Part shown: positions 25,247 through 35,590 of the stretch, piece after piece | Position numbering within the stretch: the stretch's first letter is position 1 | Layout of the letters: each line of letters starts with the position of its first letter | NCBI GenBank assembly: GCA_007693335.1 | Contig: REDU01000069.1 | Span: 1-64,000 of the forward strand | Reading direction: 5' to 3' | From: Ilumatobacter sp. | GTDB lineage: Bacteria > Actinomycetota > Acidimicrobiia > Acidimicrobiales > Ilumatobacteraceae | Length of the DNA: 64,000 bases | The notes under the pieces: generated by a model | What the model was told of the DNA's origin: nothing | The model's database searches: none | What the model saw: the letters and a program-made list of their open reading frames with translations, nothing else | Made by a program: the position numbers and the translations under genes

Positions 25247-26020
25247 TCAGGTGGTGAGGCGGGACCATCGGGCGGCCACGTCGACGTCGCCCACGACGTC
25301 GATCGCCTCGTCGAGCACGTCGGTGCGACCCCACAGCAGGAGCAGGAGCGACTCGGCGGGACCCCGCACCGCAGCCGCCCCCTTGGCGTGCTCGCGACGC
25401 ATCGACAGCTGACCGTCCTCGGTCCACAGCAGCCACTCGCCGGGAACGTCGGTGCAGTGCACGTGGAGGCTCTCGGTGGGCAGCACGACCGACCCACGAC
25501 CGGCGTTGCGCGGCACGATCACCTCGAACAGTTCGTCGATCCCGTCACTCGCGAGCTCGGGCGGCAGGGGAGTGGTGTCGCCCACGGCCGCCTCGACGTC
25601 CCACCGGTGCACCATGGTCTCGTGGGCCTGGCGCCGCGGCCAGAACGCCGTCACCTGCGGTGTGCCGAACGGGTTCCACGCCGGAGCGTCGTCGGCCAGC
25701 GGACCGAGCGTGTCGGCCAGGGTCTCGGCACCCTCGACCAGCCAGGTGCCGAGGTCGGGTCCGTCGGAGTCGTCGGGTCCGTCGGCGTCGCGACGGGACT
25801 CGTCGCGACCGGCGGGCGGACGCTCACCGTGGAGCACGGCGTACGTGGCCCAGCGGTGCACCCCACCGAGGTGACCGACCAGATCGCCCACGGTCCAGCC
25901 GGGACACGCCTCGACCGCTGCGTCGACGGGTCCGACGGTCAGCACCTCGGCGATGCGGCTCGCGTCGGCGCGCATCTGCGCCAGGTACTCGATGCTCGTG
26001 GGACGACCCGGGGCGTTCAT
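25247..26020 (-). CDS. Maleylpyruvate isomerase family mycothiol-dependent enzyme
   Basis: This 257-residue member of the MDMPI/DinB superfamily has PGWTVGDLVGHLGGVHRW near the N-terminus, with a metal-ligand histidine, and AHETMVHRWDVEAAVG in the middle, holding the other two. The C-terminal domain (PTESLHVHCTDVPGEWLLW) is of the SCP2-like type common in mycothiol-dependent members. The substrate is unknown. The ATG at 26020 has TACCGT eight bases upstream. The promoter is back-to-back with that of nfuA. Confidence 0.85.
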   Translation of the reverse strand: MNAPGRPTSIEYLAQMRADASRIAEVLTVGPVDAAVEACPGWTVGDLVGHLGGVHRWATYAVLHGERPPAGRDESRRDADGPDDSDGPDLGTWLVEGAETLADTLGPLADDAPAWNPFGTPQVTAFWPRRQAHETMVHRWDVEAAVGDTTPLPPELASDGIDELFEVIVPRNAGRGSVVLPTESLHVHCTDVPGEWLLWTEDGQLSMRREHAKGAAAVRGPAESLLLLLWGRTDVLDEAIDVVGDVDVAARWSRLTT

Positions 26021-26787: not shown

Positions 26788-28248
26788 ATGACGGCGAGCA
26801 TGACGGGGATCGTGGGATACGGGGCGTACCTGCCGTACTGGCGGCTCGACCGCGCCGCGATCGGTGCCGCGCTCGGGGCCGGCGGCGCGAAGGGGTTCCG
26901 CAGCGTCGCGAGCTTCGACGAGGACACCACGTCGATGGCGGTCGAGGCGTCGCGCCGGGCGATCACCGCCGCCGGTGAGGGATACACGCCGTACGCCGTC
27001 TGGTTCTCCACCACGGTGCCCGCCTACCTCGACAAGACCAACGCCACGGCGATCCACGCCGCGCTGGGGCTGCCCAGTTCGGCGGGCGCCTACGACGCCA
27101 TCGGCGGCCTGCGGTCGGGTCTCGGTGCGATGAAGGTGGCCGGGACCTCGACGATGCTCGGCGTGGTCAGCGATGTCCGCACCGGCCTGCCCGGCGGTGC
27201 CGACGAAGCGGCCGGTGGCGACGCCTCCGTCGCGATGTGTTTCGGGAAGTCGAGCGGCGACGGCCACGAGCCGATCGCCGTCGAGATCGGCGGCGCGGCG
27301 GCGGTGGCCGAGTTCACCGACCGTTGGCGCACGCCCGGCGAGTCGACGTCGAGGCAGTGGGAGGAACGCTTCGGCGAGCAGGCGTACCTGCCACTGGCCG
27401 AGGAGGCCGTGGCGGCGGCGTTGAAGGGTGCCGATCTCGAACCGTCGGATCTCGACCATGTGATCGTGACCGGCCTCCATGCCCGGGCCGTGCGCTCGGC
27501 GCCGCGAGCCTGCGGACTCGATCCGAGCACCGTGGTGGACGATCTCACCGCCGAGATCGGGAACACCGGTGCTGCCCACTGGGCGCTCGTGTTGGCCGAT
27601 GTGCTCGACCGCGCCGGCCCCGATCAGACCATCGCCGTCGTGGTGCTGGCCGACGGGGTGGACGTGAGGCTGTGGCGCACCACTGGGGCGATCACCTCGT
27701 ATCGCGACCGCCACGCCGTGCCGACCGTGCGCGAGCAGATCGACGCCACCCGCACCGATCTCGACTACGCCCGGTTCCTCACCTGGCGCGGGTTCCTCCA
27801 CCGCGAGCCACCCCGCCGACCGGAGCCCGATCGCCCCGCCTCGCCGCCCAGTCTGCGCACACACGACTGGAAGTTCGGGCTGGTGGGCAGCCGTGACGAG
27901 ACCGGCTTCGTGCACCTCCCACCGGCTCGGGTGAGCATGGGTTCCGGCGCGGTCGACCGGATGGAACCGGTCCGCATGGCCGACACTCCGGCCACCATCG
28001 CCACGTTCACGATCGACCGACTCGCCTACAGCATGTCGCCGCCGGTGGTGGCGGCCGTCGTCGACTTCGACGGCGGAGGACGCTTCCAGTGCGAACTCAC
28101 CGACGTCGATCCCGACGCCGTGAAGATCGGCGATCGCGTCGAGATGACGTTCCGGCGGCTGTACACGGTCGACGGGATCCACAACTATTTCTGGAAAGCA
28201 CGTCCGGCCGCGACCGGTCACGAAATCGGCACGGGGAAGGGGAACTGA
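26788..28248 (+). CDS. HMG-CoA-synthase-like thiolase-fold protein fused to an OB (DUF35-type) domain
   Basis: The 486-residue protein begins with a thiolase-superfamily fold resembling HMG-CoA synthase (GIVGYGAYLPYWRLDRAAIG, SVASFDEDTTSMAVEASRRA). It ends with an OB-fold of the DUF35 type, roughly residues 350-480. Two expected features seem absent. The position of the acyl-accepting Cys reads YDAIGGLRSGLG, and the zinc-ribbon cysteines of DUF35 are replaced in FGLVGSRDETGFVHLPPARV. It is followed after one base by a thiolase gene, so the two probably form a complex, as thiolase-HMGS-DUF35 proteins do in archaea. The reaction is unknown; a structural or CoA-binding role is possible. Confidence 0.8.
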   Translation: MTASMTGIVGYGAYLPYWRLDRAAIGAALGAGGAKGFRSVASFDEDTTSMAVEASRRAITAAGEGYTPYAVWFSTTVPAYLDKTNATAIHAALGLPSSAGAYDAIGGLRSGLGAMKVAGTSTMLGVVSDVRTGLPGGADEAAGGDASVAMCFGKSSGDGHEPIAVEIGGAAAVAEFTDRWRTPGESTSRQWEERFGEQAYLPLAEEAVAAALKGADLEPSDLDHVIVTGLHARAVRSAPRACGLDPSTVVDDLTAEIGNTGAAHWALVLADVLDRAGPDQTIAVVVLADGVDVRLWRTTGAITSYRDRHAVPTVREQIDATRTDLDYARFLTWRGFLHREPPRRPEPDRPASPPSLRTHDWKFGLVGSRDETGFVHLPPARVSMGSGAVDRMEPVRMADTPATIATFTIDRLAYSMSPPVVAAVVDFDGGGRFQCELTDVDPDAVKIGDRVEMTFRRLYTVDGIHNYFWKARPAATGHEIGTGKGN

Positions 28249-28249
28249 C

Positions 28250-29449
28250 ATGGCGTCCCACGGGATCCGCGACAAGGTGGCCATCGTCGGCCTCGGGTGC
28301 ACCAACTTCGGTGAGCACTGGGACAAATCGACCGACGATCTGCTGATCGACGCGTCGAACGACGCGCTCGCCTCCGCGGGTGTGGCACTGGACGACGTCG
28401 ACGCCTTCTGGCTGGGCACGATGGGATCGGGGCTGTCGGGCATGACGTTGAGTCGCCCGCTGAAGATCGACCACAAGCCGGTCACCCACGTCGAGAACTA
28501 CTGCGCCACCGGCTCCGAGGCGTTCCGCAACGCCTGCTACGCCGTGGCGTCGGGTGCGTACGACGTGGTGATGGCCATCGGCGTCGAGAAGCTCAAGGAC
28601 TCGGGCTACATGGGTCTCGTGGTGCCGTCGCCGGCCCACGACGGCACCGGTTCGCAGCTGACCGCGCCCGCCTCGTTCAGCTTCCTGGCGCCGGCGTACG
28701 CCGAGAAGTACGGCGTGGATCCCCAGGAGATGAAGGACGTGATGACCCGCATCGCGTGGAAGAACCACCGCAACGGTGCGCTCAACCCGCGTGCGCAGTT
28801 CCGCAAGGAGGTGCCGAAGGAGACGATCGCGTGCTCGCCGCTCGTTGCCGGCCCGCTCGGCATCTTCGACTGCTCCGGCGTGAGTGACGGATCGGCCGCC
28901 GCCATCATCGTGCGGGCCGAGGATGCCCACCGCTACACCGATCACCCGGTCTACGTGAAGGCGTTGTCGTTCGTGGCCGGTCCCGCCACCGGTCCGATCG
29001 ATCCGTCGTACGATTACACGAGCTTCACCGAGGTGGTGAGGAGCGCCGAGGATGCCTACCAGCAGGCGGGCATCACCGACCCGCGTGCCGAGCTGGCGAT
29101 GGCCGAGGTGCACGACTGCTTCACTCCCACCGAACTCGTGCTGATGGAAGACCTCGGGTTCGCCGAACGTGGCTTCGGCTGGAAGGAGGTGCTGGCCGGC
29201 ACGTTCGACCTCGACGGCGAGTTGCCGGTGAATCCCGACGGCGGACTCAAGTCGTTCGGTCACCCGATCGGCGCGTCGGGGCTCCGGATGCTGTTCGAGT
29301 GCTGGACGCAGCTGCGCGGTGAGGCCGGTGAGCGTCAGATCGCGAGCGTGGCCGCCGGCAAGACCAAGGCGCTCACCCACAACCTCGGTGGTGGACCGGG
29401 TGCGTGCGTCAGCTTCGTGTCCGTCGTGGGCTCCGAACCCGACGCCTAG
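28250..29449 (+). CDS. Thiolase family protein (SCP2-thiolase type)
   Basis: This is a 399-residue thiolase. The acyl-carrying Cys85 is in ENYCATGSEAFR. The C-terminal catalytic motifs are GHPIGASGLRML (His) and LGGGPGACVSFV (Cys). The N-terminus VAIVGLGCTNFG is typical of SCPx/lipid-transfer-type acetyl-CoA acetyltransferases, which need a DUF35/OB partner. The gene before it supplies such a domain. A GGGGAAGGGGAA Shine-Dalgarno region precedes the ATG. It likely cleaves or condenses a 3-oxoacyl-CoA, perhaps in sterol or branched-chain breakdown (inference). Confidence 0.88.
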   Translation: MASHGIRDKVAIVGLGCTNFGEHWDKSTDDLLIDASNDALASAGVALDDVDAFWLGTMGSGLSGMTLSRPLKIDHKPVTHVENYCATGSEAFRNACYAVASGAYDVVMAIGVEKLKDSGYMGLVVPSPAHDGTGSQLTAPASFSFLAPAYAEKYGVDPQEMKDVMTRIAWKNHRNGALNPRAQFRKEVPKETIACSPLVAGPLGIFDCSGVSDGSAAAIIVRAEDAHRYTDHPVYVKALSFVAGPATGPIDPSYDYTSFTEVVRSAEDAYQQAGITDPRAELAMAEVHDCFTPTELVLMEDLGFAERGFGWKEVLAGTFDLDGELPVNPDGGLKSFGHPIGASGLRMLFECWTQLRGEAGERQIASVAAGKTKALTHNLGGGPGACVSFVSVVGSEPDA

Positions 29450-29459: not shown

Positions 29460-30152
29460 GTGAGTGACAACCCGCCGATCGCACATCTCTACGTCGACGC
29501 GCACCGCTCGTTCGTCGAGCTCGCACGCTCCCTCGGCGACGACGACTGGGCCACGTCGACCCCGTGTTGTCCCGGGTGGTCGGTGCGCGACGTGCTGTCA
29601 CACGTGGCCGGGCTGGCCGACGATCTCGTGAACGGCCGTGTGGACGGCGCTGGTACCGATCCGTGGACCGCCGCGCAGGTCGAGCGATGGCGCGGGGCGC
29701 CGGTCGATGAGCTCCTCGACCAGTGGGAGCAGCAGGCTCCCGGCGTGGCCGAGGTGCTCGAGCAGCTCGGTGAGGTCCGTCCGCCGATCGACTGCTGCAC
29801 CCACGAACACGACGTCCGTCAGGCGCTCGGCCGTCCGGGCAACCGCGACGCCGAGATGGTGGGGTTCGCCACCGCTGCACTCGGTCGGTTGGATACCGCG
29901 GTGCCGGTGGAGGTCGAACTCACCGATGGCCGGCGGTTCGCGTGGACGTCGGTGGAGGCCGAGCACGATCTCCTGGACCACCACGACCGGATCACGGTGC
30001 GCGGCCTCGATCAGTTCGAACTCTTCCGGTCGCGTCTCGGGCGCCGCAGCGCCGATCAGGTGCGGGCCTACGACTGGAGCGAGCCGCCCACCGACGAGAT
30101 CCTCGACGCCTGGTTCAACTTCGGTCCGAGCCCCACCGACATCCACGAATGA
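29460..30152 (+). CDS. Maleylpyruvate isomerase / DinB-fold family protein
   Basis: This is the third DinB/MDMPI-type protein of the window, 230 residues. The N-terminal bundle has PCCPGWSVRDVLSHVAGLADD with the first metal-ligand histidine, and PPIDCCTHEHDVRQALGRPG with the later His residues. A C-terminal beta-rich domain (VEVELTDGRRFAWTSVEAE) follows. The GTG start is supported by the TAGAGT hexamer. It may be read together with the thiolase operon; its substrate is unknown. Two copies of the family B repeat follow. Confidence 0.82.
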   Translation: MSDNPPIAHLYVDAHRSFVELARSLGDDDWATSTPCCPGWSVRDVLSHVAGLADDLVNGRVDGAGTDPWTAAQVERWRGAPVDELLDQWEQQAPGVAEVLEQLGEVRPPIDCCTHEHDVRQALGRPGNRDAEMVGFATAALGRLDTAVPVEVELTDGRRFAWTSVEAEHDLLDHHDRITVRGLDQFELFRSRLGRRSADQVRAYDWSEPPTDEILDAWFNFGPSPTDIHE

Positions 30153-33610: not shown

Positions 33611-35590
33611 CGACGCGTCGCGACGTGCGCCTGAGTTCCCGGGTGCGGAGCGGCCGCAGACGGTGCGGACCGTGTCGGCGATGCCCTGGGCGTGGAGCCC
33701 CAACTGCTCGTGGATGCGGTCGGGGTTGGCTGCGTGCGGGATGAACTTCGTGGGGACCCCGAGCGCTTCGATCGGCACGACCGGGTCGAGGGTGCCCACG
33801 GCGTCGCCGATCGAGACCCCGATGCCACCTTCGCGGATACCGTCCTCGACGGTCACGACGCAGTGGTGCGCAGCGGCGTCGGCGATCATGGTCGGGTCGA
33901 GTGGGGCGCAGCACCGGACGTCCCACACGGTGGCGTCGATGCCCTCGGCCGCGAGCAGTTCGGCCGCCTTGAGCGCGTTGGCCACCATCTTGCCGATGGC
34001 CAGGAGACACACGGATCCGTCGCCGGCGCGCAGCTTGTGGCCCTCGAGCCCTGCGCCGATGTCCTCAGGATCGACCATCCGGGCCGAGCCCCGCGGGTAG
34101 CGGATGGCGACCGGGCCACTGGCGGCCAGGCCGACGGCGTCGTGCAGCATCTGCTGGAGCTCTTGCGCGCTCGACGGGGCGAGCACCCGCATGCCCGGCA
34201 CCTTCGACAGCAGTGCCATGTCGTACACGCCGTGGTGGCTGGCACCGTCTGGCCCCGTCACGCCGGCGCGGTCGAGGCAGAAGATCACTCCGAGGCGGTG
34301 CAGTGCCACGTCGTACACGACCTGGTCCCAGGCCCGCGACAGGAACGTCGAGTAGATGGCGACCACCGGGAGCAGACCGGACATCGCCATGCCGGCGGCC
34401 CCGGCCACCGCGTGCTGTTCGGCGATACCGACGTCGAAGCAGCGGTCGGGGAACCGGTCCTGGAACGGGATCAACCCGGTGGGTCCCGGCATGGCCGCCG
34501 TCACGGCCACGAGACGGGGCTCCGCCTCGGCCTCCTTGATGACCGCCTCGGCGAAGGCCTGGGTGTACCCGGTGGGAACGGCCTTGGGAGGCCCGGTGAT
34601 CGGGTCGAACACGGGTGCATCGTGGAGGTTCTTCTCGTCGTCGTCCTCGGCGGGCGGGTAACCGCGACCTTTCTGCGTGAGCACGTGCACCACGATCGGC
34701 CCTTCGGCCGACAGCTCGATGGCGTTGTGGAACGCGTCCTCGAGCGACTCCATGTCGTGACCGTCGATCGGGCCGACGTAGCGCACGCCCAGTGCCTCGA
34801 AGAACGAGGGCGGCTGGAGGAACTCGCGCACCCCGGCCTTGATGGCCTCGACCGCCCGCTCGGCCTGGGTGCCCACGCCCGGCACATGGAGCAAGAAGTC
34901 CTCGAGCTTGCGTTGGCGACGGACGTACACCGGGTTGAGACGGATGTCGGTGAGGGCGTGGGCGAGCTTGTCGGTGAGACGGTCGGAGATGCTCGGGTGT
35001 TCGGCCCGCTCGTCGGCCCCTTGCACGTTGGCCGACAGGTTCGACACCGTCGGGGCGTAGCTGCGGCCGTTGTCGTTGAGCACGATGATCACGCGACGCT
35101 TCGAGTGACCGAGGTTGTTGAGCGCCTCGTAGGCGAGCCCGCCCGTCATGGAGCCGTCGCCGATCACGGCCACGATGTGGCGGTGCGGGTCGACACCGGC
35201 ATCGCGCGCGACGGCCATGCCGTACGCGTACGAGAGCACGGTGGAGGCGTGGCTGTTCTCGATGTAGTCGTGCCGGCTCTCCTCGCGGCTCGGGTACCCC
35301 GAGAGCCCGTCGGCCTGACGGAGACGTTCGAACTGCGCCCGGCGGCCGGTCACGATCTTGTGCACGTACGCCTGGTGTCCGGTGTCCCACAAGATGGCGT
35401 CGGTGGGGGAGTCGAACACGCGGTGCAGCGCCAGCGACAGCTCGACGGCACCGAGGTTCGACCCCAGGTGCCCGCCCGTCTCGGCCACTGCCGACACGAT
35501 GAAATCGCGGATCTCACCCGCGAGGGTGCCGACCTCGTCGTACGACAGCCCTCGTAGATCCGCCGGTTCGTCGATTCGCTCCAGGAACAT
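33608..35590 (-). CDS. dxs: 1-deoxy-D-xylulose-5-phosphate synthase
   Basis: Dxs condenses pyruvate and glyceraldehyde 3-phosphate, the first step of the MEP isoprenoid pathway, using thiamine diphosphate. The 660-residue protein has the N-terminal HLGSNLGAVELSLALHRVF, the ThDP/Mg motif VIGDGSMTGGLAYEALNN, the catalytic-Glu region DVGIAEQHAVAGAAGMA and the C-terminal transketolase-like domain. The ATG at 35590 has TAGCGT ten bases upstream. As a ThDP enzyme it depends on the thiamine import and kinase genes found earlier in the window. No other MEP gene is visible here. Confidence 0.95.
   Translation of the reverse strand: MFLERIDEPADLRGLSYDEVGTLAGEIRDFIVSAVAETGGHLGSNLGAVELSLALHRVFDSPTDAILWDTGHQAYVHKIVTGRRAQFERLRQADGLSGYPSREESRHDYIENSHASTVLSYAYGMAVARDAGVDPHRHIVAVIGDGSMTGGLAYEALNNLGHSKRRVIIVLNDNGRSYAPTVSNLSANVQGADERAEHPSISDRLTDKLAHALTDIRLNPVYVRRQRKLEDFLLHVPGVGTQAERAVEAIKAGVREFLQPPSFFEALGVRYVGPIDGHDMESLEDAFHNAIELSAEGPIVVHVLTQKGRGYPPAEDDDEKNLHDAPVFDPITGPPKAVPTGYTQAFAEAVIKEAEAEPRLVAVTAAMPGPTGLIPFQDRFPDRCFDVGIAEQHAVAGAAGMAMSGLLPVVAIYSTFLSRAWDQVVYDVALHRLGVIFCLDRAGVTGPDGASHHGVYDMALLSKVPGMRVLAPSSAQELQQMLHDAVGLAASGPVAIRYPRGSARMVDPEDIGAGLEGHKLRAGDGSVCLLAIGKMVANALKAAELLAAEGIDATVWDVRCCAPLDPTMIADAAAHHCVVTVEDGIREGGIGVSIGDAVGTLDPVVPIEALGVPTKFIPHAANPDRIHEQLGLHAQGIADTVRTVCGRSAPGNSGARRDAS

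Follow-up and report, generated by a model that had tools for sequence, protein, structure and literature searches.

The window, i.e., the whole stretch of DNA analysed here (64,000 nucleotides), contains two adjoining reading frames, the extents of which coincide exactly with the original prediction; all features of this pair lie on the forward strand. The first frame (26788..28248, 486 aa) was characterised by profile matches and an AlphaFold model as a fusion protein, in which an HMGS/KASIII-like pseudo-synthase is joined to an OB domain, and the second (28250-29449, 399 aa), starting one base past the first, encodes a thiolase. The HMGS-like domain comprises residues 5-338 (26800..27801), as delimited by a match to NF003274 and alignment to 6esq_I, and scored 124.6 bits with NF003274, below the cut-off of 244, and 28.6 bits with PF08541, while the fusion reached 69.8 bits with TIGR00748, below the cut-off of 353.35. 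It is followed by an interdomain linker of low confidence (residues 341-358; 27808..27861; pLDDT about 55-62 in the block 341-360) with Arg344 and Arg357, both of which are found in 111/111 aligned fusions, by a degenerate zinc ribbon, recognised by alignment and devoid of Cys (residues 362-392; 27871..27963), and by the OB domain (PF01796; residues 395-473; 27970..28206), for which the profile match at 401-456 (54.6 bits) exceeded the gathering score of 27.1. These matches bear out the predicted fusion of HMGS-like and OB parts.

Modelled with AlphaFold (mean pLDDT 86.9, pTM 0.90), the fusion aligned best with 6esq_I in VIA (Z 40.5, 325 residues, rmsd 2.2), followed by 9skh_A (39.4), 5m3k_A PhlA (38.7), 9vbo_A MucA (35.6) and thereafter other HMG-CoA synthases, where rows within 1 Z were treated as tied. 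Foldseek likewise ranked 6esq, PhlA-type and MucA complexes first, and the best folds are accordingly the HMGS-like subunits of thiolase complexes. For comparison 128 fusions were aligned, 111 from MAG and genome searches (window included) and 17 from plasmids; rows were kept from 180 bits upwards and from a length of 420 residues for the fusion or 340 for the thiolase, and the loci L002, L003 and L008, which repeat the window or its paralogue, were taken out of the counts. The plasmid search yielded 35 records, in 33 of which a single place spanned 80% of the query or more, and the phage records searched gave no match. Among the papers listed in literature searches, none dealt with the fused HMGS-like/OB protein itself; fusions of DUF35 proteins to members of the thiolase superfamily are stated in general terms (PMC2954200). 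Across the fusions the OB domain is more conserved than the HMGS-like part (mean column entropy 1.31 vs 1.78).

In the HMGS-like domain the residues expected of a synthase are missing. In the alignment to 6esq (chain I) the catalytic Cys of HMGCS, C114, pairs with Leu108 (27109..27111) and the catalytic Glu, E82, with Thr76 (27013..27015), and in 0/128 fusions was a Cys or a Glu, respectively, found in these columns; the acyl-Cys loop reads IGGLRSG, just as had been predicted. The HMGCS His column, which we take to be that of the catalytic His, holds Thr228 (27469..27471) and a His in 1/128 fusions. In 19/128 fusions residues 74-78 include a Glu, so that a shifted Glu is conceivable there, and in only three do residues 106-110 include a Cys, at position 110. 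A conserved Cys elsewhere in the protein, named beforehand as the observation that would speak against the prediction, was searched for and a displaced catalytic Cys was ruled out: the column richest in Cys (45/111) is located in the OB domain. The picture did not change with further loci collected by means of the HMGS model, as the fused ones are without Cys. Apart from these, L172 has both Cys and Glu and resembles a standard HMGS, and L171 (G269:C323) is an HMGS-like frame of about 391 aa that lacks both the OB part and the Cys, possibly an unfused relative. Since the loss holds across 128 fusions, it is not a chance pattern and is family-wide instead of peculiar to the window protein. Around the dead site, residues are nevertheless well kept, with Asp103 in 126/128, Arg or Lys109 in 127/128 and His264 in 99/128 fusions, and His231 and Arg233 likewise conserved in most of the 128; this counts against a pure scaffold, which need not keep them.

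The zinc ribbon has lost its Cys in the window as predicted, the four positions reading D370, T372, S383 and S386 (0/4 Cys). Among the 128 fusions, four ribbon Cys were counted in 49, five in 4, one in 2 and none in 73, so that the zinc site is nearly all-or-none. Because many relatives with a dead active site retain all four Cys, the zinc loss is separate from the loss of the active site. On a tree built without the ribbon columns, five zinc-site changes were obtained, at least three of them forced by well supported branches, a rough count, as the tree was built quickly, has long branches and does not give the direction of change. For a control, OB proteins of 35 loci were drawn from the own genome and from others of its order, minus three unplaced ones (L202, L214, L217) and minus L003, a fusion paralogue and the only one to match the fusion model over the HMGS-like part. 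Outside the fusion family (n=31), 24 had a Cys4 ribbon, in two a His stood alongside three Cys (L193, L198) and five had no Cys (L005, L007, L205, L208, L216). The assumption that zinc loss is special to the fusion was consequently rejected: the loss is real, yet not unique to the fusion family, because Cys-free ribbons also occur in 5/31 non-fusion OB proteins. As to the ribbons with His, that of L198 (genome G319) reads C-x3-H-x8-C-x2-C, a Cys3His1 pattern, and that of L193 (G316) about C-x2-H-x10-C-x2-C; zinc is bound by four Cys in all homologues compared in PMC12329534 except Shy, and the Cys3His1 pattern is described there as conserved only among Shy proteins. In L208 and L216 the ribbon-Cys-free OB domain lies in long frames, of which the fusion model matches essentially the OB part only; a putative MaoC-like partner domain was read from the letters of both.

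The thiolase (28250..29449) belongs to the NF004810 (PRK06157) family (606.5 bits vs a cut-off of 403) and displays an SCP2-thiolase-like HDCF motif. Its nucleophile Cys85 (28502..28504), His288-Asp289-Cys290 of HDCF (29111..29119) and His338 of GHP (29261..29263) are each found in 101/101 relatives, and Cys85, HDCF (288-291) and GHP (337-339) as a whole are invariant in these and in the 16/16 plasmid partners aligned, from which the unannotated partner in L131 was omitted. At that locus, in Paraburkholderia sp. PGU19 (L131 10447-11716), an unannotated open frame beside the fusion begins like a thiolase. The Cys/His/Cys set ascribed to the thiolase in the original prediction is thus retained, the second Cys being that of HDCF, with Asn378 at the position of the classical CxGGGxG Cys. 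HDCF is regarded as the mark of SCP2-thiolases, where aldolases have YDHF or YDCY instead (PMC12329534). This motif of steroid side-chain aldolases (Ltp2, Sal) is absent, HDCF being present in the window and in 16/16 plasmid partners, and with HDCF, a nucleophilic Cys and the GHP His the window thiolase has the features of the SCP2 type. It aligned with 6esq_A at E 4.2e-55, with the motifs CxxG, HDCF and GH in common.

That the fusion is partnered with a thiolase was confirmed beyond the window. A thiolase was located at most 300 nt downstream of the fusion in 29/29 loci (L010-L038), in 65/80 loci (L039-L118) and, by tblastn, in 14/14 plasmid loci, and in L135 and L138 it adjoins the fusion by annotation. 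The exceptions among L039-L118 comprise 11 loci with a more distant thiolase and four without one in reach, three of which lie at a contig end, while L067 has about 2 kb of room. In Natrinema the order of the two genes is reversed. One genome (G274) possesses three fusions, each with its own adjoining thiolase, and the same applies to both fusions of the window's own genome. Identities of fusion and thiolase were correlated over 117 loci with r 0.93, a value that includes shared ancestry. The two genes, as these arrangements show, travel together.

The surroundings of the window pair comprise NifU-like, MDMPI and SDR genes, with no catabolic operon around; two MDMPI-type (mycothiol-dependent isomerase-like) genes, 25250-26020 (-) and 29466-30149 (+), flank the NifU-fusion-thiolase stretch. 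In the 17 plasmid stretches read, neighbours include acyl-CoA dehydrogenases, MaoC/crotonase hydratases, SDRs, CoA-transferases and AMP-binding ligases, with SDR, MaoC, fusion and thiolase in consecutive order in plasmids of Sphingomonas paeninsulae and Variovorax paradoxus, and with ring-hydroxylating dioxygenases close by in R. qingshengii, M. avium, Variovorax SRS16 and Niveispirillum; the Natrinema stretch showed no beta-oxidation-like operon. Clustering of the neighbours of 80 MAG loci returned SDR, NifU-like, CoA-transferase III, acyl-CoA dehydrogenase and MDMPI proteins, no fixed operon, and five of ten representatives without a Pfam match. Relatives of the pair are found in many bacteria and often stand near breakdown genes, the annotated ones in operons that resemble those for beta-oxidation.

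The paralogous pair of the own genome (contig C124; L173, 502-8831) adjoins two SDRs, an enoyl-CoA hydratase (NF005925, 417 bits), a FabK-like protein and IpdA-like and IpdB-like proteins with 338 and 268 bits, respectively, to chains of 6co6, presumably IpdAB. This neighbourhood points to a possible steroid ring degradation in the own genome. A thiolase step follows IpdAB, performed by FadA6 or another thiolase, and the identity of the thiolase in the steroid HIP pathway is called less clear by the authors (PMC5380842). An association with ipdAB as a general rule was rejected, the hits being confined to L173 and the overlapping L185 among the loci searched. Since only the C124 region had IpdA/IpdB matches, this lead concerns the paralogue and does not extend to the window pair.

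The pair probably constitutes a two-component degradative acyl-CoA thiolase, the fused partner of which is a pseudo-synthase scaffold and a clamp for CoA and substrate; most likely the fusion is a built-in support for the thiolase, not a new catalyst. Two genes would yield one enzyme, with the chemistry carried out by the thiolase alone. By analogy with the archaeal and PhlABC complexes we infer that the HMGS-like domain, inert and dimeric, would dock on the thiolase dimer and act as its scaffold, and that the fused OB domain, zinc-free as it would be in the lineage of the window, would take the place of a separate DUF35 protein or PhlB, bridge both and close the acyl-CoA cavity. The gene neighbourhoods suggest that the complex may work mainly in the direction of breakdown, cleaving 3-oxoacyl-CoA, which acyl-CoA dehydrogenase, MaoC/crotonase hydratase and SDR dehydrogenase acting on ring-derived or branched acids would supply. 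Of the two roles originally offered for the fusion, that of a scaffold stood, and no evidence was found that the fusion carries out a new reaction of its own; the interpretation was in part supported, with the known precedent of PhlA (PMC6392133) and the family-wide extent of the loss missing from it.

Other readings have to be weighed against the same evidence. PhlA and MucA, which also lack the Cys, rank with the closest relatives of solved structure, and the pair could accordingly be a biosynthetic C-acyltransferase like PhlABC or MucABC with an aromatic or enol acceptor; this is unlikely, as beta- and ring-oxidation genes predominate around the 17 plasmid loci, and the thiolase scores far above the cut-off of its thiolase model, whereas its match to PhlC reaches only E 1.9e-24 and ranks behind many other thiolases. 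The conservation of Asp103, Arg109, His231, Arg233 and His264 could also indicate some new chemistry or ligand sensing of the HMGS-like domain's own, which we consider rather unlikely in a fusion without any conserved Cys, all the more since Asp103 and the basic residue at 109 are common to HMGCS and PhlA and may therefore partly reflect upkeep of the fold. If the thiolase acted by itself and the fusion were merely its chaperone or regulator, this would agree with the proposal that the complex requires PhlA and PhlB in order to fold correctly (PMC6392133), but the pairing in most loci and the conservation of the OB domain suggest a lasting part and render such a role improbable.

A functional HMG-CoA synthase complex of the mevalonate pathway is brought to mind by archaeal HMGCS as the nearest solved relative of the fusion. 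It is nonetheless very improbable, given that Cys, Glu and His are gone and that the scores fall short of both the NF003274 and the TIGR00748 cut-offs; moreover, neither a match to HMG-CoA reductase nor an HMGS above cut-off was found in the genome (93.7% complete), and DXS of the MEP route, the rival to mevalonate, is encoded in the window (33662-35578), and because of the missing reductase and the presence of DXS, mevalonate synthesis is unlikely altogether.

The two-component thiolase with its inert partner bears on annotation, where relatives of the fusion are listed only as 'OB-fold domain-containing protein' or 'hydroxymethylglutaryl-CoA synthase' and the neighbour as 'acetyl-CoA acetyltransferase': with this reading entries in many genomes would be corrected, and such genes would no longer be tallied as mevalonate genes. 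The pair is also a candidate thiolase for pathways in which the thiolase is unsettled, e.g. the steroid HIP pathway, and active HMGS, inert PhlA, inert fusions with ribbon Cys and inert fusions without them form a natural series for the question of how an enzyme turns into a scaffold. More tentatively, the fusion may mark out an uncharacterised group of degradative thiolases with two components, represented in Acidimicrobiia, Rokubacteria, Rhodococcus, sphingomonads and other taxa. In this group the dead HMGS would serve as a half-site (Asp103, Arg109, His231, Arg233, His264) that recognises 3-oxoacyl-CoAs of ring-opened steroid, alicyclic or aromatic type, and zinc might have been lost on several occasions while the OB clamp changed its shape.

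Systems of this kind are already known, since an inert PhlA and DUF35 fusions have been described (PMC6392133; PMC2954200); the one-chain form, with or without a zinc site, and the catabolic setting are the variant. The link to the archaeal thiolase/HMGCS/DUF35 complex (6ESQ) drawn in the original prediction holds, as this complex has the same three folds as the window pair and is its best PDB match in sequence and fold. However, its HMGS is active (Cys114, Glu82), whereas the HMGS-like domain of the window is inert, and its DUF35 protein is separate and has ribbon Cys, whereas the OB domain of the window is fused and without them. The archaeal complex is arranged much like PhlABC, with CoA at the interface of the three proteins (PMC6392133). 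The phloroglucinol C-acyltransferases PhlABC (PpATase) and CsATase (5M3K, 9SKH) comprise an inert HMGS-like PhlA, an active thiolase-like PhlC and an OB protein, PhlB, and the window pair has counterparts of all three: an inert HMGS-like part, an OB part and an active subunit of the thiolase fold. PhlA, already termed inactive (PMC2954200), has Gly115 and Cys83 in place of Cys and Glu, acyl transfer involves PhlC residues only, and PhlB mediates the binding of the PhlA and PhlC dimers (PMC6392133). In contrast to the single reading frame for the HMGS-like and OB parts in the window, PhlABC consists of three separate subunits; PhlB retains a Cys4 zinc, where the OB domain of the window has no ribbon Cys, and the reaction is a biosynthetic acyl transfer to a phenolic carbon without CoA. 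MucABC of Streptococcus (9VBO), with an HMGS-like MucA that like the fusion has no Cys at the acyl-Cys position, is also made of separate subunits and acetylates in mutanocyclin biosynthesis (PMC10161427). Finally, in the DUF35 proteins ChsH2 and Shy, which act with the steroid aldolases Ltp2 and Sal, the OB domain forms one chain with another enzyme domain and docks to a partner of the thiolase fold (PMC12329534), but this partner is an aldolase with YDHF or YDCY, whereas that of the window has HDCF, and zinc (C4 or C3H1) is present, whereas the fusion of the window has no ribbon Cys.
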